A DNA stretch of 64,000 nucleotides, from contig JAJZUV010000003.1 of assembly GCA_021848345.1 (NCBI GenBank), positions 1-64,000 of the forward strand, given 5' to 3'. The translations under genes were made by a program, and so were the position numbers. The notes under the pieces are model-generated. The model was not told where the DNA came from. It did no database searches and saw only the letters and a program-made list of their open reading frames with translations. Every line of letters begins with the position of its first letter. The first letter of the stretch is position 1. This document shows, in pieces, positions 41,472 to 53,823 of the stretch. This DNA comes from Pseudomonadota bacterium (GTDB lineage: Bacteria; Pseudomonadota; Gammaproteobacteria; Burkholderiales; Burkholderiaceae_C).

Positions 41472-41675
41472 GGCTGATCTCTCCGATGAGGGGGTGGAAC
41501 ACTCTCGCGTCGCCGCGTCCGCGCTCGCGCGGACACGGTCCGTGGAGCAGTCTAAGGCGCCGCCGCGCAACTTTCAGGACAGGTCCGCGGATCCCGGCCG
41601 GGCCGCGGGCCCTGGATGCCGCCGCGTACTGTGGATATCATCAGTCCCGCGGCACCGCGGCCGCGACCTCCACGC

Positions 41676-42848
41676 ATGGCCTCCGACTCCGTCCAGCTTC
41701 CGCCCCGGCGCATCGCGCATCTGGACATGGATGCCTTTTTCGCATCGGTGGAACTGCTGAGCTACCCCGAACTGCGCGGCCTGCCGGTGGTGGTGGGCGG
41801 GCGCCACCGCTGGCAACCCGAGCGCCTGGCCGACGGCTCCTGGCGTTTCGCGCGCCTGCGCGACTACGCCGGGCGCGGCGTGGTCACCACGTCCACCTAC
41901 GAGGCGCGCGCGCTGGGCGTGTTCTCGGCCATGGGCATGATGAAGGCCGCCCGCCTGGCCCCCGACGCGATCCTGCTGCCGGCGCGCTTCGAGGCTTACC
42001 GCGAGTATTCACGGCGCTTCAAGGCCGCGGTGGCGACGATCGCGCCGCACATCGAGGACCGTGGCATCGACGAGATCTACATCGACCTGAGCGGGCATGC
42101 CCAGGCCGACACCGAGGCGCTGGCCCGCGGCATCCAGGAGGCGGTGCGCGAGGCCACCGGGCTGAGCTGCTCCATCGGCGTGACGCCCAACAAGCTGTTG
42201 TCCAAGATCGCCTCCGAACTGCGCAAGCCCGGGGGCGTCACCGTGCTGCACATGCACGATCTGCCCGAGCGCATCTGGCCCCTGCCGGCGGCGAAGGTCA
42301 ACGGCATCGGGCCGAAGGCTGCCGAGCGCCTGCGCGCGCTGGGCATCGTGACCATCGGCGAGCTGGCCGCCGCCGCGCCCGAACGGCTGCAGGAGCATTT
42401 CGGACGCGGCTACGCGGCCTGGCTGCACGCGGTCGCGCACGGCCGCGACGATCGCCCGGTGCAGACCCACTCGGAGCCCAAGTCGGTCAGCCGCGAGACC
42501 ACCTTCGAGCGCGACCTGCATCCGCGCCGCGACCGCGACGAACTGTCGCGCCTGTTCACCGAACTGTGCCGGCAACTGGCCGAGGACCTGCGGCGCAAGG
42601 GCTGCGCGGCGCGCACCATCGGCATCAAGCTGCGCTTCGAGGACTTCCGCACGGTCACGCGCGACCTGTCCCTGCCCCATCCCGTGGCCGACGCGCGCGC
42701 CATCCGGGACGCCGCCGGCCAGTGCCTGCGCCGCGTCGATCTCGACCGCCGGCTGCGACTTCTGGGCGTGCGAGCGGCCGCGCTGCACGATGTGTCCGCG
42801 CTCGGGAGCGACCCGGCGGCGATGCAGCTCAACCTGCTCGAGCCCTGA
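41676..42848 (+). CDS. dinB: DNA polymerase IV (Y-family)
   Basis: The 390-residue protein has RRIAHLDMDAFFASVE (first catalytic acid), DEIYIDLSG (second acid pair), the helix-hairpin-helix NGIGPKAAERLRALGI and a little-finger domain, ending with a probable clamp-binding motif MQLNLLEP. It does error-prone translesion synthesis. The start is uncertain: ATG at 41676 lies 12 residues before the domain, while ATG at 41616 would add 20 residues; neither has a clear Shine-Dalgarno. It converges closely with the GAF-GGDEF gene. Confidence 0.92.
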   Translation: MASDSVQLPPRRIAHLDMDAFFASVELLSYPELRGLPVVVGGRHRWQPERLADGSWRFARLRDYAGRGVVTTSTYEARALGVFSAMGMMKAARLAPDAILLPARFEAYREYSRRFKAAVATIAPHIEDRGIDEIYIDLSGHAQADTEALARGIQEAVREATGLSCSIGVTPNKLLSKIASELRKPGGVTVLHMHDLPERIWPLPAAKVNGIGPKAAERLRALGIVTIGELAAAAPERLQEHFGRGYAAWLHAVAHGRDDRPVQTHSEPKSVSRETTFERDLHPRRDRDELSRLFTELCRQLAEDLRRKGCAARTIGIKLRFEDFRTVTRDLSLPHPVADARAIRDAAGQCLRRVDLDRRLRLLGVRAAALHDVSALGSDPAAMQLNLLEP

Positions 42849-42865
42849 CGCCGGCCCGTCGCCGC

Positions 42866-45142
42866 TCAGGACCCTCGCGACGAGGACACCACCTGCAAGG
42901 CCGGCGCGGCGCGCGGCGCGGCGCCTTCCAGTCGCGCGCCGGCCGCCGGCGCGAGCTGCCACCAGCGCGCACGGTCGCGTTTGTGCAGCTTGGCCTGGTA
43001 CATCGCCGCGTCCGCCTGGCGCACCAGACCCTCCGGGTCCTGGGCGTCCAGCGGAAACAGGGCCAGGCCCATGGACATGCCCACGCTCGCCCTGCAACCC
43101 GGCGCCAGCTCGAAGGGCTGATCCACGGCCGCGTGCAGGCGGCGCAGCACGTCGCCCAACTGCTCCAGCACGTGGGCCGCGTCGATCTGTTCGATGACCA
43201 CGACGAACTCGTCGCCACCCAGCCGCACCAGCACGTCGAACTTGCGGATCGCGCCACGCAGACGCTGCGCGATCTCCCGCAGCAGCAGGTCGCCCACGTC
43301 GTGGCCCCAGGTGTCGTTGACCGGTTTGAAATCGTCCAGGTCGAGCATGCCCACGGCCAGCACGCTGCCGTCGCGCCGCGCCGCGGCCAGGGCCTGCGGC
43401 AGGTACTGGGTGAGCGCGAAGCGATTGGGCAGGCCGGTCAGCAGGTCGTGGCGCGCGCGATGCGACTCCTCCAGTTGCAGGTCGTTGAGCCGCCGCTTGA
43501 TGTCCAGCTCGTCCAGGCCGTGGCCGAGCAGCTCGGCCAGGCGCTGGCACAACTCGGTGGTCGCCTCGTCGAAGGCATCGCGTTGCGGCGACACGAACAC
43601 CAGCACGGCCCAGATGGAAGCGCCGCGGAACACCGGCGCGGCCAGCGCCGAACGCCAGTCGTAGCGGGTCATCGACTCCCGCCACGGCGCCATGCGGGCA
43701 TCCCCCAGCAGGTCGTTGCAGCAGGCGTTGCGATGGCTGTCCCAGACCCGCAGCACCAGCGGGGAACGGTCGACGTCGTGCAGACTGATGTGCAGCGCGT
43801 CGAGCTGATCCGCCCCGCTGCCCGCGCGCGCGATCACCTCGACGCGCCCGGCATCGTCCGGGCGCGCCATCCACGCCGCATGGAACTGCGTGCCCTCGGT
43901 GAGGGTCTGGCAGGTGCGCAGCAGCATGTCGGGAACGCTGCGCGCCTGCAGCAGCACGTCGCCTTCGCGCATGAGCGCGCGATACAGGCGCTGCAGCTGC
44001 TGCATGCGCCGACGCTGCTCCAGCGCCTGCATCGCGCGCTGCACCGCCAGGCCCACGTTGAGCAGCACGTCCAGCGTGGCGGGATCGAAGGCCCCGGGCT
44101 CGTCCAGGCACAGCACCAGTACCGAGCCCGGCGCGGCCTGCTCGGCTTCGGTGTCGCGCAACGGCAGCGCGGCCACCGATCCGCAGGCCGGCTCGCCGGA
44201 GAAACAGGCCGTCGCCTCGTCCCAGGCACGCAGCGCCTGGGCATGCCCCGGCAGATCCCCCGGGTCCGCGCGCGCCGTGAAGCGCGCCAGCACCTCCAGT
44301 TCGCCGCCGGCCTCGGCGGCGCGCCCGATCCAGGCGTGGCTCAGGCCGCCGCGCTGCACGGCCACCCGACATGCCGACTGGCGGAACTGATCCAGGTCCT
44401 GCGCCTGCGCACCGAGCTGGCCCAGTTCCACCAGCAGCGCGTTCAGGCGCGCCATGCGATGCGCGCGCAGCGCCTGCTGCTCGCGCAGTTGCATGGCCCG
44501 GCCCGCCTGCGCGCGCCACGCCAGGCCGCGCGCGTGACGCTGCTGCGCCGCGCGCACCGTCAGCACCACGAACAGCAGGTAGGCCGCGCCCAGCAGGGCC
44601 GCCGGATGCACGGCCGGGCTGCTGCCCAGGCTCAGCCAGACCACCAGCGGCAGCAAGGCGCCGGCCGCGAAGCCCAGCGCGGCGAAGGCATCGAAGGCCA
44701 GCGCGAACGCGATCCCTCCGGCCACGCAGGCGACGACGAAGGCAGCCAGGCCGGCCGCCAGACCCTGACGCGGGGCCAGCCACCAAGGCATCAGTCCCCA
44801 CAGCAGGCCGTTGACGGTACCGCCGACGCACAACACGCGGTGCGTGAGCCGGCGCGCGCCGTCCGCTCCATGTGGATGCCGGCCGCGCCCGAGGTGAAGC
44901 GACGCGCGCCGGTGCAGCAGCAAGGCAGGCGATTGCGAGCCCAGCACCAGCAGTACCCAGGCCGTCACAGCCAGCTGGCCCGCGTACGGAATGAACAACC
45001 ACGCGCAGGCGGCGCAGGCAACCGCCTGCGCCAGCGCGACCAGGCCCAGCGAGTCCAGCAACTGAAACGGTTGCTCCGTGCCGGGCGGCAAGCCGCGCGA
45101 TGCCGACCCCGCCGCAGCCCGCGATGAAGGCTCCTGCTGCAC
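42866..45142 (-). CDS. Membrane-bound GAF-GAF-GGDEF diguanylate cyclase
   Basis: The 758-residue protein has about six N-terminal membrane segments (residues ~28-190), two GAF-like domains (~225-560) and a GGDEF domain with an intact GGDEF motif (642-646) preceded by DLLTGLPNR. It should make c-di-GMP. No EAL domain is present. The GTG start at 45142 is set by an AAGGA Shine-Dalgarno. The GGDEF domain and its end (ARWWQL) closely match those of the divergent neighbour at 45435, so the two are likely to have arisen by duplication. Signal sensed: unknown. Confidence 0.88.
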   Translation of the reverse strand: MQQEPSSRAAAGSASRGLPPGTEQPFQLLDSLGLVALAQAVACAACAWLFIPYAGQLAVTAWVLLVLGSQSPALLLHRRASLHLGRGRHPHGADGARRLTHRVLCVGGTVNGLLWGLMPWWLAPRQGLAAGLAAFVVACVAGGIAFALAFDAFAALGFAAGALLPLVVWLSLGSSPAVHPAALLGAAYLLFVVLTVRAAQQRHARGLAWRAQAGRAMQLREQQALRAHRMARLNALLVELGQLGAQAQDLDQFRQSACRVAVQRGGLSHAWIGRAAEAGGELEVLARFTARADPGDLPGHAQALRAWDEATACFSGEPACGSVAALPLRDTEAEQAAPGSVLVLCLDEPGAFDPATLDVLLNVGLAVQRAMQALEQRRRMQQLQRLYRALMREGDVLLQARSVPDMLLRTCQTLTEGTQFHAAWMARPDDAGRVEVIARAGSGADQLDALHISLHDVDRSPLVLRVWDSHRNACCNDLLGDARMAPWRESMTRYDWRSALAAPVFRGASIWAVLVFVSPQRDAFDEATTELCQRLAELLGHGLDELDIKRRLNDLQLEESHRARHDLLTGLPNRFALTQYLPQALAAARRDGSVLAVGMLDLDDFKPVNDTWGHDVGDLLLREIAQRLRGAIRKFDVLVRLGGDEFVVVIEQIDAAHVLEQLGDVLRRLHAAVDQPFELAPGCRASVGMSMGLALFPLDAQDPEGLVRQADAAMYQAKLHKRDRARWWQLAPAAGARLEGAAPRAAPALQVVSSSRGS

Positions 45143-45292
45143 CTTGTTCCTTGTTCTCGTTCGTTCGTGTCGATGCCCCGGCCGCGATGCGCGGCGACCG
45201 CGCCGCGGCACAACGGCGTGGATGCCATTTTGCGTCCTCGGCGCGGCGATGGCATCCGGCCCCGCCCCACAAACGCAATATGGAGGCGGTTT

Positions 45293-45308
45293 CGTGACAT
45301 TGTTCACG
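45293..45308. promoter_or_regulatory. CRP-like palindrome in the divergent c-di-GMP promoter region
   Basis: CGTGACATTGTTCACG has perfect CGTGA / TCACG arms around six bases, matching the core of the CRP consensus (TGTGA-N6-TCACA) at GTGA/TCAC. It lies between the two divergent c-di-GMP genes, 151 bases from one start and 127 from the other. The binding protein is not known. Confidence 0.5.
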
Positions 45309-45434
45309 CCTGCGTGGCGGCGATGCATCCGACAATGGGCTGCCCTTCGCGCGCGGACCGTCTCCCTGGGTAGGTGTCGCGCGTACTCGAGCCGGGAGAT
45401 CCCGGCCCGCGCACCCGCACGGATTCCGCCCGTC

Positions 45435-48400
45435 ATGAAAACCCACACCCCCCAGCAGGCCCCGCCGGGCGCGAGCCCCCGGGAGCACGGCGCGCCCGCG
45501 TCCGCCGGCGGGGTGCGCGCCGCCGCCGATGCGCTCCGGGATGCGGCGGACGAAGCGGCATCTCCGGAGGACGAAAGCGCCCGCCTCGACCAGGCGGCCT
45601 CGCTGGCCGCGCGGGCGCTGAATCTCCAGGCCGTCCTGTTGCGCCTGCGCGACGACGAGGAATGGCTGCAGGGACTGCACGACGGCGGCGACACCCGCGC
45701 CTGCGCGGCCCTGCTGCGCGCCGCGAGCGGCCGGCACGCGCGATCCATCGAGGCCGTCGAGGCCACCGGCGCCGCCGACGCGCGGCTCGCGCCGGTGACA
45801 GCGCCCGGTTGCGCGGCGGGGGACCTCGGCCTGTGCGAGCGCGAGGCCCTGCATGACCCAGGGGGCCGTGAGCTGGCCGTGGTGTGGGTCGGCGACGTCG
45901 CCGCGCGGGATCTGCGCGAGCACGAGCGCGAGTTGTTGCGCGGCATCGCGCGGCAGGCCTTCGAATGGCTGGCGGCCCGGCGCGCCGCGCAGCGTCTTGC
46001 GCGCGACAGGCGCCACCTGCAGCGTCGCGCAGACTTCACCGCCGTGCTGGCACGTTCCAACCAGCTGATCGCGCAGGCCCCGGACGAGCAGACCATGCTG
46101 CAAGGCATCTGCGACATGACGGTGTCCGACGGTGGACTGCGCCTGGCCTGGGTGGGCTGCCCCGACGCTCGGGGGCAGCTGGACTACCTGGCCAGCGCCG
46201 GCGAACGGGACTATCTGGACGGACTGGTCCTCTCGGTGCACCCCGACCGGGTCGAGGGCTGCGGCGCGGCGGGCCATGCGTGGCGCGAGCAGCGCGCGTA
46301 CTTCCTCGCTTCCTTCGCGCGCTCGCCGATGCTGGAACCCTGGCGCGAGCGCGCCGCGCGCTGCGGCATGCGGGCCACCGCCACGCTGCCCATCCGGCGC
46401 GCCGGGAGCATGTGGGGCGTGTTCACGGCCATGCACAGCGACGAGGATGCCTTCGACGAGCAGTTGCAGACCCTGCTCACCGAACTGGCGCACAACATCT
46501 CCCGCGGACTGGACAGGCTCGACGCCGCGCGTCGCGAGCGCGAACTCACCGGGCTGCAGCAGGCGCTGCTGGATCACACGCTGGCCGGCATCGTGGTGGT
46601 GCGCGACCGTTACATCGTCAGCGCCAACCGACGCTTCGCGCTGATGCTGGGCCACGATGACCCGACCCAGCTGGTCGGACGTTCCACGCGCATGGTCTAC
46701 GCCTCGCAGGCCGAGTACCTGCGGGTGGGCAACATCTACCCGCGCCTGCGCCAGCTCGGCAGCGCGCTGGCCATGGACGTGCGCGTGCAGCGCCGCGACG
46801 GCGCGGAACTGCTGTGCGACGTGTCGGTGGGCCTGACCCGCGACGACCAGGACACGTCCGTGTGGACCTTCCAGGACGTCACCGAACGCGCGCGCCTGCA
46901 GCAGCGACTGCGCCATGAGGCGCTGCACGACCTGCTGACCGACCAGCCCAACCGGCGCGCCCTCGAACAATACCTGCCACAGGCCCTGGCGCGCGCGCGA
47001 CGCAACGGCCGGGCGGTCGCGGTGGGAATGCTCGACCTGGACGATTTCAAGCCGGTCAACGACAGCTTCGGCCATGACGCCGGCGACCGCCTGCTGCAGG
47101 AAGTCGCGCAGCGCCTGCGCTCGCTGCTGCGCGAATGCGATTTCCTGGCGCGCCTGGGTGGGGACGAATTCGTCGTCGTGGTCGAGGAACTCGAGGCGCG
47201 CCATCTGGCGCGCCAGCTCAGCCGGCTGCTGCGGCGCCTGCACGGCGCGGTGGAACGCCCCTTCGCGCTCGGGCCCTCGGTGCAGGCCAGCGTGGGCATG
47301 ACCATGGGCCTGGCCGCCTTCCCCGCCGACGGCGCCGACAGCGACACCCTGCTGCGCCAGGCCGACGCCGCGCTCTACCAGGTCAAGGCGCGCAAGCAGC
47401 AGCGCAGGCGCTGGTGGCAGCTCGGCGTGCGTCAGGCGGCCGAGCCGGGCCAGGACCCCGCCTTCGACCCCTACGGCCCCGAGGCCGTGCAGTTGCTGGG
47501 GCAGGTGCGCAACCTGCTGAGCGAGGCCACCGAGCGCTTCGCGCAGGCCTTCTACGACGATGTTCGGCAGGACCCGCGGACCCGCGCCATCGTCTCCTCG
47601 CTGCAAGGCGACGAACTGCAGGCGCTGCGCGCACGCCGCGCGGAGCACCTGCGCTTCGTGCTGGACGCCGCGACCACGCGCGAGGAGGTGCTGCGCCAGG
47701 CCCGACGCCTGGGCGAGGTGCATGCGCTGGTGGGGGTCGGCGCCGAGCACATGATCCGCCCGCAGGGGCTGTACCGGCGCCTGGCCGGCGAAGCGCTGGG
47801 CGGCTCGACACTGACCGCGCGCGCACGCTTTCAACTGTTGCGCCTGATCGAGGAACGCCTGGAGGACGACCTGCAGGCGCAGATGGGCGCGCTGGCCGAT
47901 GTCGGATCGAGCTATTTCTCCGCGCTCACCCCCGACGCGCTGCCGGCGCGCGCGCTGTGGCGCGACGCGGTGCACGAGCTCATCGCCCCCATCGGCCGGC
48001 TGCCGGGGCTGCTGGCCTGCCACGTCATGCGCCCGGATACCCAGGGCGTGTTCCAGCGCGAGGCCGCCAGCGGTCCGCGCTCCGCGGACATCATCGAGTG
48101 GCTGGGCCAGGCCCGCTTCCAGGCCTGCCTGGAAAACGCCGGCGCCGACGACAGCGGGCTGCTCGTGCAGGCCTGGCACGCCGCGCGCATCCAGCACTGC
48201 GACTCCTACGCCAGCGACCCCAGGGTGCGCCATTGGAGCGCCATGGCCGCGGAGCTCGGCGTGCGCAGCGCGCTGGCCGTTCCGGTTCCCGGGGAACAGG
48301 GACAGCCGGTGTTCGTGCTCGGCCTGTTCGGCGCCTGGCCGAACCAGTTCTCCAGCCCCGGCATGCAACAGTTCGCCAGATCGCTGCAACAGCACGCGGC

Positions 48401-49466
48401 GCGGGTCTGGCAGTCCTGCCGACGCGCCACGGCCTGCGAGCCGCTGGCCCAGGCGCAGGCGCAGGTGTGCCGCGAGCGATTGTTCTCGGGGGGCCTGGAG
48501 ATGTTCGTGCAACCCGTGGTGGACCTGGTCGACGGCTCCTGCCGGCGCGTCGAGGCCCTGGCACGCCTGCGCCTGGCCGACGGCACCGTGCTGGCGCCCG
48601 CGCGTTTCCTGCCCATCCTCGGCGACACCGAGCTCGACCGCCTGCTGCGCCAGGGCCTCGACCAGGTGTGCCAGCAGTTGCGCGCCTGGGACGCCCAGGG
48701 CCTGTCGATGGAGGCGGCGCTCAACCTGCCGCCGTCCACGCTGCTGGACCCCGAATGCACGCTCTGGGTGGAACAGGCGCTGCGGCGCCACGGCGTGGCG
48801 CCGCAGCGCCTGACCCTGGAACTGCTGGAGAACCAGGACGTGGACATGCGCACGCAAAGCGCCGCGCTGCGGGCGCTCAAGGCGCTGGGCGTGCGCCTGG
48901 CCATGGACGATCTGGGCTCCGGCTACAGCAGCCTGCAGCGCCTGTCCATGCTGCCCTTCGACTGCATCAAGCTCGACCAGGGCCTGACCCTGGAACTGCG
49001 CCGCGCGCCGCTGCAGACCCTGGGGCTGATGCGGGCGATCATCCAGCTGGGCCACGACCTGCAGCGCCAGATCGTCGTGGAAGGCGCGGAGGACGACGGA
49101 GTGCTGGAGGCCGTGCTGGCGCTCGGCGCGACACGGGCGCAGGGCTACGGCCTGGCGCGCCCCATGCCCGCCGGCGAATTCGCGCGTTGGCGGGCCGGGT
49201 TCCGCCTGGGCGTGCACGCCTCGCGGGTGAGCACCTGGCTGGGCGCGCTGGCCACGCACTGGATGGACCCGCGCAGCCCCAGGCGCGAGTCCGCGCCGGC
49301 ACTGCAGCGATTCCTGGACGCCTCGGCACCAACCGAGGTGCGCACCTGGCACGCGCAGGCACGCGGCCACGGAGGCACCGCCGAGCAGGCCCGCGAGCGC
49401 CTGACCGAATGGCTGGTCGGGCGCGTGCGCGCGGAACGGGCCGGGGACCCGGAGCAGGATGGGTGA
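45435..49466 (+). CDS. GAF-GAF-PAS-GGDEF-globin-GAF-EAL c-di-GMP protein
   Basis: A 1343-residue soluble protein. Domains as read: GAF-like (~45-195), GAF (~200-370), PAS (~376-495), GGDEF (~505-660, intact GGDEF 575-579), a globin-coupled-sensor globin (~676-800) with predicted proximal His763 in LGEVHALVGVG, GAF (~835-1000), EAL (~1010-1260; E1040 in EALAR, NLPP, DDLGSG, KLDQG, VEGAED, QGYG) and an unassigned 80-residue C-terminus. Both enzyme halves look capable of catalysis. A globin lying between GGDEF and EAL is unusual; in known examples it is N-terminal. ATG at 45435 is the only good start. Confidence 0.88.
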   Translation: MKTHTPQQAPPGASPREHGAPASAGGVRAAADALRDAADEAASPEDESARLDQAASLAARALNLQAVLLRLRDDEEWLQGLHDGGDTRACAALLRAASGRHARSIEAVEATGAADARLAPVTAPGCAAGDLGLCEREALHDPGGRELAVVWVGDVAARDLREHERELLRGIARQAFEWLAARRAAQRLARDRRHLQRRADFTAVLARSNQLIAQAPDEQTMLQGICDMTVSDGGLRLAWVGCPDARGQLDYLASAGERDYLDGLVLSVHPDRVEGCGAAGHAWREQRAYFLASFARSPMLEPWRERAARCGMRATATLPIRRAGSMWGVFTAMHSDEDAFDEQLQTLLTELAHNISRGLDRLDAARRERELTGLQQALLDHTLAGIVVVRDRYIVSANRRFALMLGHDDPTQLVGRSTRMVYASQAEYLRVGNIYPRLRQLGSALAMDVRVQRRDGAELLCDVSVGLTRDDQDTSVWTFQDVTERARLQQRLRHEALHDLLTDQPNRRALEQYLPQALARARRNGRAVAVGMLDLDDFKPVNDSFGHDAGDRLLQEVAQRLRSLLRECDFLARLGGDEFVVVVEELEARHLARQLSRLLRRLHGAVERPFALGPSVQASVGMTMGLAAFPADGADSDTLLRQADAALYQVKARKQQRRRWWQLGVRQAAEPGQDPAFDPYGPEAVQLLGQVRNLLSEATERFAQAFYDDVRQDPRTRAIVSSLQGDELQALRARRAEHLRFVLDAATTREEVLRQARRLGEVHALVGVGAEHMIRPQGLYRRLAGEALGGSTLTARARFQLLRLIEERLEDDLQAQMGALADVGSSYFSALTPDALPARALWRDAVHELIAPIGRLPGLLACHVMRPDTQGVFQREAASGPRSADIIEWLGQARFQACLENAGADDSGLLVQAWHAARIQHCDSYASDPRVRHWSAMAAELGVRSALAVPVPGEQGQPVFVLGLFGAWPNQFSSPGMQQFARSLQQHAARVWQSCRRATACEPLAQAQAQVCRERLFSGGLEMFVQPVVDLVDGSCRRVEALARLRLADGTVLAPARFLPILGDTELDRLLRQGLDQVCQQLRAWDAQGLSMEAALNLPPSTLLDPECTLWVEQALRRHGVAPQRLTLELLENQDVDMRTQSAALRALKALGVRLAMDDLGSGYSSLQRLSMLPFDCIKLDQGLTLELRRAPLQTLGLMRAIIQLGHDLQRQIVVEGAEDDGVLEAVLALGATRAQGYGLARPMPAGEFARWRAGFRLGVHASRVSTWLGALATHWMDPRSPRRESAPALQRFLDASAPTEVRTWHAQARGHGGTAEQARERLTEWLVGRVRAERAGDPEQDG

Positions 49467-49535
49467 CCCGGGTCCGCCATCCCGCTCGCGATACTGCTCG
49501 GCGCTTGATGCCTTTTTAATACAGCCCGCCGAACA

Positions 49536-51959
49536 ATGGCCCGCAACCTATCCGTTGCGGGAACCATGGGCGCACATCCCTTCCGATTCGCCGCCGACAG
49601 CGGCCTGCGTTTCACACCGTTTCGAGCCCTGGCGGCGCTGGGCCGGGTGCGCCGCGACGGACGCGATGCGCTCACGGGCCTGGCCACCCGTGCCGCACTG
49701 GAGCGCCGCGTGGCCGAACTCGCCGACCCGCCGTGCGCGGGCGAGCAACTGGCGGTGCTGGTGCTGGACGTCTACCGCTTCGGCAGCATCAACGAGGCCT
49801 GGGGCCGCCAGGCCGGCGACGCCGTGCTGGTCGAACTGGCGCGCCGGCTGCGCGAACTCGGCGGCAGCGAACTGCTGGCACGCGTGGGAGCCGATTCCAT
49901 CGGGGTCCTGTTGCGCGGAGCCGCCGCCGACGACTGGCGCGGCGTGGTCGAGCGCATGATCAAGAGCCTGCGCGAACCCTTCGCGGTGGGCGGCTCCCAC
50001 ACCCGCAAGCTCTCGGCCTCGGTGGGCTGCGCCCTGTTCCCGCAGGACGCCAGCAGTGCCTCGCGCCTGCTCGGGCTGGCGGAAGCCGCCGTGTTCAGCC
50101 AGGCCGAACGCGATCTGCAGCGACGCAGCGAGGCGCTGGACCCGTACGGCGACGAGACCGCCGCCACGATGGCCTGGCTGCAGCGATTCCTGGGCCCGCA
50201 ACTGCCGCGGCTCAACGAGGAATTCCTCGCCGGGCTGGGACTCTCGGACCATGCGCACGGAGGCGGCGCATCGTGCCTGCCCGCGCGCGACGCGGTGCAA
50301 CTGCTGCCCGAACTCGACGGCTACGTGCCTTTGCTGCTGGCCCCGGGGCTGCGCCAGGCGCGACACCGCGAACACGCCGAGCGTCTGGGGCGGCTGCTCG
50401 CCGCGCTGGGACTTCCGGCGCAGGTGGGCGTGGGCGCGATGGGCCATCTCTACCAGGGCGTGGCGGTCCTGGCGCACCGTATCCCGGCGCGCCTGAGCGA
50501 GCGCACGCTGCTGCTGGGCACCCTGCTGCGACGCATGGAGGCCGACATCGGCTTCCAGCACCAGGGCGCCGAGGCGCTGCGTCACGAACTGATCGAACGC
50601 CTGCGCCATCTGGGAACCGCCATGCAGGCGGCGCGACGACGCAGCGGCCTGCTGGACATGGTGGTCGACGGCCTGCAACAACTTCCCTTCGTCGCGTGCT
50701 GCGCCGTATACACCCAGGACGCGCGCGGCGCCTTCGTGCTGGAGGCGCAAAGCTCGGCCCACGAACCCTGGAGCGGCGAGCCGGCACCGTCGCCGCACGA
50801 TCCCGACACGGCCCAGGCGCGCGGCGGCGCGCTGGCGCGCTGCTGGCTGCGCGCGGCAGTCGAGTTCGGCCCGGACATCGCGCGCGCGGCCCGCCAGGGA
50901 CAGGACTGGGCCGTGCAACTGCTGGGCCTCGGTGTGCGCGCCTCGGTGGCGGTGCCGGTGCTCGACGCCTCCGGCAACGTGATGGTGGTGCTGCAGTTGT
51001 ACGGGCGTCTGCCGGGACAGTTCGGCACCCAGCTCATGCGCCATGCGCTGGACTCGCTGCGAGCCTCGGTGGCGATGGAACTGGCGCGCGTGGGCGAAGG
51101 CATCGCGCTGCCGGCGGTGGCCGCCGACGAACGCGCGCTGTGGCGCCAGCGCCTGTTCGGCGGCGGCCTGCGCATGTTCATGCAACCCATCGTCGACCTG
51201 CGCCAGCAGCGCTGCACCCGGGTGGAGGCGCTGGCGCGCCTGCAACTCGACGAACGCACCCTGCTGACGCCCGGACGCTTCCTGCCGGTGCTGGGCCAGC
51301 ATGAACTGGACCGCCTGTTCCTCGACGGCCTGAACCTGTCGCTGCAGGCGCTGCTCGACTGGGAACGCCAGGGACTGAGCCTGGACTTGTCGCTCAACCT
51401 TCCCCCGTCCACGCTGCGCCACGCCGACTGCGTGGACTGGGTGCGCTCGGGCCTGGAGCGTCGCGGCATCGACCCGCGCCGGCTCAGCCTGGAGATCCTG
51501 GAGGATCGCGACGTGGCCACGCAGGCCACCATGCGCGACACCACCGAGCGCCTGCGCGCGCTCGGGGTGCGCCTGGTGCTGGACGATCTGGGCGCGGGCT
51601 ACAGCAGCCTGCTGCGGCTCAACAGCCTGCCCATCGACATGGTGAAGGTGGACCAGGGACTGGTGCACGGCATCGTCGCCAACAATCCCCGCGCCGTGCC
51701 GCTGGTGGCCGGACTGGTCGACCTGGCCCGCCGGCTCGACCTGGGCATCACCATCGAGGGTCTGGAGACCCAGATCCTGCTGGAATACGCCCAGTACCTG
51801 CAGGCCGACTTCGGCCAGGGCATGGCGATCTCGCCTCCGCTGGAGCCGCGGCGCGTGCCGGGCTGGGCGCGCGCCTGGCGCATGCCGGCGCTGTCGGGCA
51901 TCGCGCCCTTCGCCTCCATGCTCGATCCCGAGGCCCGCGCCACGCGCCGGCTTCTTTGA
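49536..51959 (+). CDS. Degenerate GGDEF-globin-like-GAF-EAL protein
   Basis: The 807-residue protein has the same domain order as the 45435 gene without the N-terminal sensors: GGDEF-like (~45-195) with GADSI (118-122) in place of GGDEF, a globin-like domain (~200-330) starting DPYG, GAF (~365-530) and EAL (~530-790). In the globin-like part the predicted haem-ligand position reads LGLPAQVGVG, with Pro294 or its neighbours where the paralogue has His763. The EAL keeps EALAR, NLPP, DDLGAG, KVDQG, EGLET and GQGM. I infer a phosphodiesterase lacking cyclase and probably haem. ATG at 49566 is an alternative start. Confidence 0.85.
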   Translation: MARNLSVAGTMGAHPFRFAADSGLRFTPFRALAALGRVRRDGRDALTGLATRAALERRVAELADPPCAGEQLAVLVLDVYRFGSINEAWGRQAGDAVLVELARRLRELGGSELLARVGADSIGVLLRGAAADDWRGVVERMIKSLREPFAVGGSHTRKLSASVGCALFPQDASSASRLLGLAEAAVFSQAERDLQRRSEALDPYGDETAATMAWLQRFLGPQLPRLNEEFLAGLGLSDHAHGGGASCLPARDAVQLLPELDGYVPLLLAPGLRQARHREHAERLGRLLAALGLPAQVGVGAMGHLYQGVAVLAHRIPARLSERTLLLGTLLRRMEADIGFQHQGAEALRHELIERLRHLGTAMQAARRRSGLLDMVVDGLQQLPFVACCAVYTQDARGAFVLEAQSSAHEPWSGEPAPSPHDPDTAQARGGALARCWLRAAVEFGPDIARAARQGQDWAVQLLGLGVRASVAVPVLDASGNVMVVLQLYGRLPGQFGTQLMRHALDSLRASVAMELARVGEGIALPAVAADERALWRQRLFGGGLRMFMQPIVDLRQQRCTRVEALARLQLDERTLLTPGRFLPVLGQHELDRLFLDGLNLSLQALLDWERQGLSLDLSLNLPPSTLRHADCVDWVRSGLERRGIDPRRLSLEILEDRDVATQATMRDTTERLRALGVRLVLDDLGAGYSSLLRLNSLPIDMVKVDQGLVHGIVANNPRAVPLVAGLVDLARRLDLGITIEGLETQILLEYAQYLQADFGQGMAISPPLEPRRVPGWARAWRMPALSGIAPFASMLDPEARATRRLL

Positions 51960-51969
51960 TGTCACCACA

Positions 51970-53823
51970 ATGTCATCAGCCCGAGCGACCATGGGCGACA
52001 AAGTATGCTCCGCCGCCATGGCCGCCATCGCTCCGCCCCTGTTCTCTCCTGTCGACGCCGAGCCGGACCGCCTGGCGCTTTTCCAGGAGATCCTGGAAGG
52101 AAACCTGCTGCGCACGGTATTCCAGCCGGTACTCGACCTTCGCAACCGCAGCTTCCACGGTTTCGAGGCCCTGATCCGGGGGCCGGCCGGCAGCCCGCTG
52201 GAACGCCCTGACCATCTGTTCGACTGCGCGCGCCGCAGCGCCCGCGTGGCAGAGTTCGACCGTCTGTGCGTGCAGACCAGCATCGAGGCCTTCGCCGCCG
52301 CCGAACTGCAGGGGCATCTGTTCCTCAACGTCACCGAGGCGCTGTTCGACTCCGGCTGGTTCGCGCAGGAGCCCACGCTGCGCTGGCTGCAGGAGCGCGG
52401 GTTGCCCCCGTCGCGCCTGGTGCTCGAACTGCTGGAGTCGGACTCGCTGGCCGAGGACACCCAGGCCTTTTCCGCGGCGCGCTTCCTGCGCGACCTGGGC
52501 TACGGGCTGGCGCTGGACGACCTGGGCCAGGGCTTCGGGCGCTTCGCGCTGTGGAAACGACTGCGCCCGCGCTACCTGAAGGTGGACCGCAGCTACATCG
52601 CCGACCTGGCCGGCGACCCCTTCAAGGCGGCCTTCGTGCGCTCCATGCTGCTGCTGGCCGAGGCCAGCCAGTCGGTGGTGGTGGCCGAGGGGGTGGAATC
52701 CGAACGCGACCTGCTGACCCTGCGCGAAATCGGGGTCAGCATGGCCCAGGGCTATTTCATCGCCAGGCCCCAGCCCAGCCCGTCCGCCGAGCCCGGCGCG
52801 CACACCCGCGAGGTGCTGGGCAACCCGCAGCCGGCGCTGCACGCGCTGGCCAGCCGCGGCAGCATCGAACAATCGGTGCTGGGACTGGCGCGCCCCATCG
52901 AGCCGGTGCAGCCGCAGGTCAAGCTCGACCACGTGCTGCGCATGCTGGAGCAGGACCCGGACCTGACCTCGGTGCCCATCGTCGACGGCCAGGGCCAGGC
53001 GCTGGGCATCATCAACCGCTACGTGGTCGCCGACCGGCTGTTCCGCCCGCACGTGCGCGACCTGTTCGGCAACAAGCCCTGCACCCTGGTGATGAGCAGC
53101 GACGTGCTGCGCCTGGACGCCAAGAGCAGCCTGCAGCAGGCCAGCAGCCTGATCGCCGACTCCAGCTATCGCCACGCCACCGAGGGGGTGCTGGTGACCG
53201 ACGGCGGCCAGTACCGCGGACTGCTGCTGGTGGGCGACCTGCTGCGCCTGGTCACCGAGTTCCAGGTGCAGGCGGCGCGCTACGCGAACCCTCTGACCCT
53301 GCTGCCGGGCAACGTGCCGATCAACGACTGCATCGACCGCTGGCTGCACGAGGAACGCCAGTTCGCCGCCGCCTACGCCGACATCGACAACTTCAAGCCC
53401 TTCAACGACAAGTTCGGCTACCGCATGGGCGACGAGATCATCCTCATGCTGGCCGACCTGCTGCGCAGCCAGCTGCCTCCGGGCGAGCAGTTCCTCGCCC
53501 ACATCGGCGGCGACGACTTCGTCGCGCTGTCGTGCTCGCCGGACTGGGAGACGCGGATGCAGGCGGTGCTGCGGGCCTTCGAGGCCGGCGTGGCGCAGTT
53601 CTTCGAGCCGGCGGTGCTGGAGCAGAAGGGCTACTGGTCGGAGAACCGGCGCGGCGACGCGATGTTCTTCCCCGTGCCCACGCTGTCCATCGGGGCCTTC
53701 GTGGTCAACCCCGGGCACTTCGATTCCCACCGCGAGGTGGCCAACGTGCTGGCCGAGCTCAAGCGCGCGGCCAAGCGCCTGCCGGGCAACGCGCTGTTCG
53801 TGGACCGGCGGCGCTACGGCTGA
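51970..53823 (+). CDS. EAL-CBS-GGDEF c-di-GMP protein
   Basis: The 617-residue protein has an EAL domain first (EAL at residues 66-68, FLNVTEA, DDLGQG, KVDRSY, AEGVES, QGYF), then a CBS-pair region (~295-425, with VPIVDGQGQALGIINRY and GVLVTDGGQYRGLLLVGDL), then GGDEF with GGDDF at 513-517. Both halves keep catalytic residues. CBS pairs bind adenylates or similar ligands. The gene starts ten bases after the previous stop and is probably co-transcribed. Starts at 51991 and 52018 are possible because no Shine-Dalgarno decides. Confidence 0.88.
   Translation: MSSARATMGDKVCSAAMAAIAPPLFSPVDAEPDRLALFQEILEGNLLRTVFQPVLDLRNRSFHGFEALIRGPAGSPLERPDHLFDCARRSARVAEFDRLCVQTSIEAFAAAELQGHLFLNVTEALFDSGWFAQEPTLRWLQERGLPPSRLVLELLESDSLAEDTQAFSAARFLRDLGYGLALDDLGQGFGRFALWKRLRPRYLKVDRSYIADLAGDPFKAAFVRSMLLLAEASQSVVVAEGVESERDLLTLREIGVSMAQGYFIARPQPSPSAEPGAHTREVLGNPQPALHALASRGSIEQSVLGLARPIEPVQPQVKLDHVLRMLEQDPDLTSVPIVDGQGQALGIINRYVVADRLFRPHVRDLFGNKPCTLVMSSDVLRLDAKSSLQQASSLIADSSYRHATEGVLVTDGGQYRGLLLVGDLLRLVTEFQVQAARYANPLTLLPGNVPINDCIDRWLHEERQFAAAYADIDNFKPFNDKFGYRMGDEIILMLADLLRSQLPPGEQFLAHIGGDDFVALSCSPDWETRMQAVLRAFEAGVAQFFEPAVLEQKGYWSENRRGDAMFFPVPTLSIGAFVVNPGHFDSHREVANVLAELKRAAKRLPGNALFVDRRRYG

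Follow-up and report, generated by a model that had tools for sequence, protein, structure and literature searches.

Globin-coupled sensors (GCSs) are generally pictured with the sensory domain at the front of the chain. An N-terminal sensor is given as their general plan in part of a research paper (PMC10882959), passages of a review describe enzymes of cyclic dimeric guanosine monophosphate (c-di-GMP) turnover as carrying N-terminal haem protoglobin or PAS domains (PMC8846402), and sections of an account of Acidithiobacillus c-di-GMP proteins likewise put sensors in N-terminal regions (PMC4331095). Here we describe a protein, which we call P, whose globin lies in the middle of the chain. It is encoded in a stretch of 64,000 nucleotides (the window), positions 1 to 64,000 of contig JAJZUV010000003.1 in assembly GCA_021848345.1, from a Pseudomonadota bacterium of the GTDB lineage Gammaproteobacteria; Burkholderiales; Burkholderiaceae_C. 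Sequence comparison suggests that P is most likely a phosphodiesterase with a globin sensor, in which the globin would gate the EAL domain, and that a cyclase with sensors of its own has been fused ahead of it.

P is an open frame, ATG to stop, at 45435-49466 on the forward strand (1343 aa), with the order GAF-PAS-GGDEF-globin-GAF-EAL. About 200 residues without domain assignment are followed by the GAF and PAS domains found by Pfam ahead of GGDEF (aa 217-359 and aa 376-482). The GGDEF domain (46920-47402, aa 496-656; PF00990, E 2.4e-42) has the GGDEF motif at 575-579 and the I-site RECD at 566-569, as expected of a dual GGDEF-EAL enzyme. Behind it stands the protoglobin segment, which in our model spans 47436-47954 (aa 668-840) and whose Pfam core is aa 683-798 (Protoglobin PF11563, E 3.8e-8, 33.9 bits against a curated cut-off of 25). 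A custom profile places a further GAF domain between globin and EAL (47946-48416, about aa 838-994); Pfam counts two GAF stretches in P, with coordinates only for the better one (217-359). The EAL domain (48474-49163, aa 1014-1243; PF00563, E 7.4e-49) has a complete set of catalytic residues, nine of nine positions (numbered as in RocR) being as expected, and a C-terminal tail of about 100 aa ends the protein. All of these domains lie on the forward strand. The layout bears out the initial annotation, which had placed a globin between GGDEF and EAL in a 1343-residue protein, with a GAF and then the EAL behind it.

As judged from sequence and model, the globin of P is a real globin of the GCS type. 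A single-sequence search of the PDB put the Geobacter sensor globin 2w31 first at a non-significant E of 0.082. With a profile of 18 relatives the top three were 2w31 (E 5.4e-4), the T. elongatus globin domain 8h17 (E 5.6e-4) and HemAT 1or4 (E 0.033). AlphaFold gave a confident globin for aa 668-840 (mean predicted local distance difference test, pLDDT, 85.9; predicted template modelling score 0.79), with a closing helix of 37 residues at about aa 795-831. The best PDB matches of this model are haem GCSs: the first 22 in Foldseek are the globin domains of DosC, BpeGReg, the Geobacter GCS, HemAT and AfGcHK, plus 8h17, with DosC 4zvb at the top (E 9.9e-5, template modelling score by target 0.76) and seven matches at E <= 0.001. 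The motifs DPYG and LGEVHALVGVG, and the proximal His763 that the initial annotation had predicted, are all found, the His of VHAL being residue 763. It aligns with the proximal haem ligand, and Tyr707 with the distal tyrosine; neither residue varies in any of the 18 relatives aligned. P therefore has the sensor-type fold, the proximal His and distal Tyr, and an output (GAF-EAL) that follows the globin on the same polypeptide, as a GCS does. The N-terminal position is what it lacks, since about 670 residues, GGDEF included, precede the globin.

Long frames overlap P on the opposite strand, for example at 42009-49370, and might lead one to regard the Protoglobin match as spurious or the reading frame as a false fusion. 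We rejected this reading and give it a negligible chance. The Pfam score lies above the cut-off, the model and the Foldseek matches agree on a globin, and the ratio of nonsynonymous to synonymous substitution rates (dN/dS) is far below 1. Moreover, a scan of genome contigs with the globin-GAF segment of P found 17 loci, in Thiomonas sp. or Proteobacteria metagenome-assembled genomes, and custom profiles show the order GGDEF-globin-GAF-EAL in 17 of the 17, among them one locus (L017) where the frame end cuts the EAL, which continues in another frame. The best segments are 36-97% identical to that of P. Judged by the best named relatives, the source of the window is probably Thiomonas or a bacterium near it.

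The partner of the globin was judged from a comparison set of 62 family proteins whose globin, GAF and EAL share a single frame; 54 of them also carry a GGDEF ahead of the globin and eight do not. The set was not sampled for frequency. Left out of it are a cut copy of D, the gene after P, in L007 (no GAF in frame), L150 (no EAL), L028, and the classical N-terminal globins L065, L072, L074 and L076-L079 (no GAF behind); L069 entered the tree only, as its 63rd row.

Four observations favour the globin as the input of GAF-EAL. Globin-GAF-EAL exists without GGDEF in eight of the 62 (L080 from Caballeronia, L141, L148, L154, L157, L158 and two in L160), with the globin at the front; L141 sits in the window's own genome. 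Short, steady linkers tie globin, GAF and EAL together (n = 54; globin-GAF, median 3, 1-16; GAF-EAL, median 19, 17-26), whereas the GGDEF-globin linker is the most variable (median 19, 4-62). None of the nine EAL catalytic positions is substituted in the 62 proteins, gaps occurring only in the two cut-off frames L017 and L061, whereas the GGDEF motif is degraded in some. It departs from the consensus in 10 of 54, six of these being D and its orthologs and one (L075) coming from a split frame. Finally, the GGDEF domain has its own GAF and PAS in front. On the tree, six of the eight GGDEF-less proteins group with L069, while L080 and L141 fall among GGDEF-bearing proteins, and the starred branches require at least three changes of state. 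The tree was midpoint-rooted for drawing only, and we therefore make no claim as to which state, with or without GGDEF, came first.

Several points weigh against this assignment. An EAL match was needed for entry into the set, and proteins without EAL in frame (L150 and the D of L007) are absent from it, so the EAL count leans towards EAL being kept. The tree places of L080, a long branch, and of L141 rest on unstarred branches (93/88 and 93/81). The proximal His is absent in nine of the 54 proteins with GGDEF and three of the eight without. In P itself, dN/dS (Nei-Gojobori, 7 orthologs, 21 pairs) is 0.090 in EAL, 0.111 in GGDEF, 0.178 in GAF, 0.304 in the globin, 0.311 in the front part and 0.425 in the tail. 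Both enzymes are thus strongly constrained and the globin less so, its constraint being the weakest among the four core domains. The intact, strongly constrained GGDEF of P, fused in front in 54 of the 62, makes a coupling between globin and GGDEF possible.

Such a coupling is central to a rival reading, in which gas sensing by the globin acts on GGDEF and EAL in opposite ways, a single binding event being enough to replace synthesis by breakdown. The initial annotation had proposed much the same, an internal globin switching between making and breaking c-di-GMP in response to oxygen or another gas. The place of the globin, flanked by catalytic domains that both keep their motifs, and the frequent fusion with GGDEF among the proteins compared would fit this reading, as would the known DcpG, which acts oppositely with O2 and NO according to part of the work on it (PMC10882959). 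However, the rear unit is a separate protein in the GGDEF-less members, the linker joining GGDEF to the globin is the one that varies most, GGDEF decays in some members where EAL residues do not change, and the cyclase is preceded by sensors of its own. We regard opposite control of the two enzymes as unlikely, although it deserves to be kept in mind. What stands of the earlier proposal is a sensor-type globin with His and Tyr between a GGDEF and an EAL with intact motifs; the switch between making and breaking is the less likely part, the comparison favouring an action of the globin on GAF-EAL.

We consider it probable, then, that P is a two-headed c-di-GMP enzyme composed of two sensor-output units, in which the globin drives the EAL and the front sensors drive the cyclase. 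In the front unit, GAF-PAS would feed the diguanylate cyclase GGDEF. The rear unit would be a complete globin-coupled sensor phosphodiesterase consisting of globin, closing helix, GAF and EAL. His763 would hold the haem and Tyr707 would steady O2, and a ligand on the haem would reposition the closing helix and, by way of the GAF, the EAL dimer. Gas binding would set the rate of c-di-GMP breakdown, and the front sensors the rate of synthesis. Haem binding by P, O2 as the ligand and the direction from globin to EAL are what we infer, whereas the domain order, the globin fold, the conserved haem and catalytic residues and the free-standing rear unit are seen in sequence, model and comparison. With GAF-EAL as its likely output, the globin would stand in its usual place relative to the domain it controls. 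Our guess that O2 raises the phosphodiesterase activity of P is made by analogy with two enzymes described in part of one paper, namely DcpG of Paenibacillus dendritiformis, a dual-activity protein whose O2 form is active as a phosphodiesterase, and a Vibrio globin HD-GYP enzyme whose O2 form is active (PMC10882959).

Of the 54 proteins with GGDEF, 45 retain the proximal His and 42 the distal Tyr; of the eight without GGDEF, five retain the His and four the Tyr. With the His missing in some members, haem is not needed by every one of them. The relatives without this His are D and its orthologs, L024, L060, L143, L080 and L160. Besides D, two of these are in the window's own genome, L143 with Arg at this position (the front of the globin being missing from the match) and L024 with Gln. 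Haem-free globins occur in RsbR-type proteins, and the globin of P could in the same way have ceased to be a haem sensor and become a dimer or partner-docking domain. The His-less relatives give this reading some substance, as does purifying selection on the His-less globin of D (dN/dS 0.147; 6 orthologs, 15 pairs). However, His763 and Tyr707 do not vary among the aligned relatives of P, and its best structural matches are haem sensors; we hold a haem-free role for P to be improbable. Joint loss of His and Tyr was also considered as a proof of haem and was rejected. Both are gone in D, yet L024 and L060 retain the Tyr without the His, and in L143 the match is without that part of the globin, which leaves no real support for haem from this line of argument.

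P is one of four c-di-GMP genes that lie together at 42866-53823. A divergent neighbour (42866-45142, reverse strand) is a GAF-GGDEF diguanylate cyclase by Pfam analysis of the longer frame, with a GGDEF motif and a probable start at about 45142. P is followed by its tandem paralog D (49536-51959, forward strand, 807 aa) and by the third gene of the run, which encodes an EAL-CBS-GGDEF protein of 617 aa (51970-53823, forward strand; identified by Pfam) and has the same neighbours in relatives. All five relatives whose flanks reach far enough (L008-L012) show the same order of c-di-GMP-domain genes, compared without CBS; in L010 the locus ends inside the last gene. At 41616-42848 lies an impB/mucB/samB (DNA polymerase IV-like) family gene.

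D consists of a degraded GGDEF (GADSI), a His-less globin, a GAF and an intact EAL. Pfam detects the GGDEF and the EAL, as well as a GAF that falls slightly short of its cut-off, and misses the globin, which our custom profile picks up at 52 bits. Among the NCBIfam models listed (25 of 32 for P and 25 of 27 for D), only the general GGDEF model TIGR00254 is above cut-off. The degraded globin (50118-50615, forward strand) has Leu in place of the proximal His and again in place of the distal Tyr. Its model reaches a pLDDT of 82.8 and its nine best Foldseek matches are GCS globins, with a looser fit (best E 3.8e-3, none at 0.001, root-mean-square deviation 4.4 to 5.1); lower matches include phycobiliproteins. 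By dN/dS this globin is more constrained than that of P. In the D orthologs of L008-L012 the haem His and distal Tyr have likewise been lost, along with the GGDEF motif.

By a globin-GAF profile of 24 rows (A1), the window's own genome has 10 members, nine with GGDEF in front and one without. PF11563 is above cut-off in five of these 10, so the family is probably under-annotated. Counts across taxa were made with A1 at E <= 1e-30 in overlapping draws, each of which contains the window's genome, and in the larger draws scoring was confined to the 5 to 8 top candidates of each genome. The family has multiplied in the genus, with matches in 28 of 28 genomes, 2-19 in each and 316 in sum, these being matches and not resolved genes. 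In the wider draws, A1 matched in 4 of the 60 genomes taken from the family, 10 of the 250 from the order and 13 of the 369 from the class, and the single matching genome among 398 from the phylum is the window's own. From Protoglobin matches of the class we also picked 20 regions, mostly for long frames and not as a frequency sample; the globin is behind GGDEF in 11 (counting L075, whose GGDEF is split between frames), N-terminal in eight and unclear in one (L073). Spread of the family on plasmids was rejected, as a search of 72,556 plasmid records at E <= 1e-3 gave a single matching record.

Individual members vary in their architecture. In the window's own genome, L142:39-4784 (contig C6) has FIST, FIST_C and PAS ahead of GGDEF-globin-GAF-EAL, and L028:2852-4843 (contig C11) encodes a globin-GGDEF protein of classical order whose Pfam globin is below cut-off and whose His sits one residue from the usual place (GKLFHAW). 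L150:1976-4204 is a GGDEF-globin-GAF frame that ends ahead of any EAL, and L069:3897-7100 encodes globin-GAF-GAF-GGDEF-EAL with an N-terminal globin-GAF matching the family profile, of which L069 is itself a row. Ahead of the globin-GAF-EAL gene of Caballeronia, L080:2561-3544, lies a divergently oriented gene for a diguanylate cyclase, like the divergent neighbour of P. A C-terminal tail behind the EAL (window positions 49149-49463 in P) is common to several members. Of five tails scanned against Pfam, three, that of P among them, gave no family at E <= 0.1; the tail of L024 gave one chance-level match, and the protein end of L027 a CZB zinc-binding match below cut-off (24.8 bits against 29.4) plus a weak ExsE match. 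The CZB of L027 recalls that of AFE_1712, as mentioned in part of a study of Acidithiobacillus (PMC6416229).

The family offers a direct test case for how a mid-chain sensor of a dual enzyme divides its signal, with natural controls in the same genome that lack GGDEF (L141) or the haem ligand (D). Thiomonas is a mine-water genus and c-di-GMP a biofilm signal, and P may point to a link from oxygen to biofilm in Thiomonas. A more far-reaching scheme, to which we give little credence, is that the genus built a tunable oxygen-sensing array from one globin-GAF-EAL unit, with about 10 copies per genome, most with their own front sensors and cyclase. Haem-less copies such as D would serve as dimer partners, and mixed dimers would set graded O2 thresholds for c-di-GMP breakdown. 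The portion of a Thiomonas genome paper that we drew on describes an island rich in GGDEF/EAL proteins, and the word 'globin' does not occur in the main text of that paper (PMC2829063). Hyphenated architecture names of the GGDEF-globin or protoglobin-EAL type gave no match in the open-licence papers searched, and other print may hold some.

Among known systems, DosC (YddV), BpeGReg and AvGReg have the order globin-middle-GGDEF. Their globin drives the cyclase behind it, whereas in P it is GAF-EAL that stands behind the globin. DosC and BpeGReg share the globin fold with P, and their globins are its best Foldseek matches. In DcpG the globin is N-terminal, ahead of both GGDEF and EAL. P differs in having the globin behind GGDEF and followed by GAF-EAL, with GAF and PAS domains in front, although DcpG, in the part of the paper that describes it, likewise combines one globin sensor, a GGDEF and an EAL in a single chain (PMC10882959). 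The same source in part presents the GCS-HD-GYP of Vibrio fluvialis, which like P would be a globin-gated c-di-GMP phosphodiesterase but has an HD-GYP output, an N-terminal globin and no cyclase (PMC10882959).

In Acidithiobacillus, sections of one study report 80 GGDEF-EAL proteins with Protoglobin and name the architecture Protoglobin-GGDEF-EAL-CZB, as in AFE_1712 (PMC6416229). AFE_1712 of Acidithiobacillus ferrooxidans and ACAty_RS14615 of pACA1.1 resemble P, so far as these sections go, as GGDEF-EAL proteins of acidophiles with a protoglobin. AFE_1712 was set beside P by its description, and it or others of its kind may have an internal globin as P does, which limits any claim of novelty for P; ACAty_RS14615 differs from P in its N-terminal globin and has no GAF by our custom profile. 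The same globin-GAF-EAL unit as in P is found in WP_244817502.1, encoded on plasmid p1 of Caballeronia sp. Lep1P3 and annotated only as an EAL domain-containing protein. Unlike P, it has no GGDEF and carries Asn at the proximal-His position. The GCSs described in the parts of the two sources cited at the outset carry the globin in front (PMC8846402, PMC10882959), whereas in the family of P it stands behind a cyclase and ahead of a phosphodiesterase.

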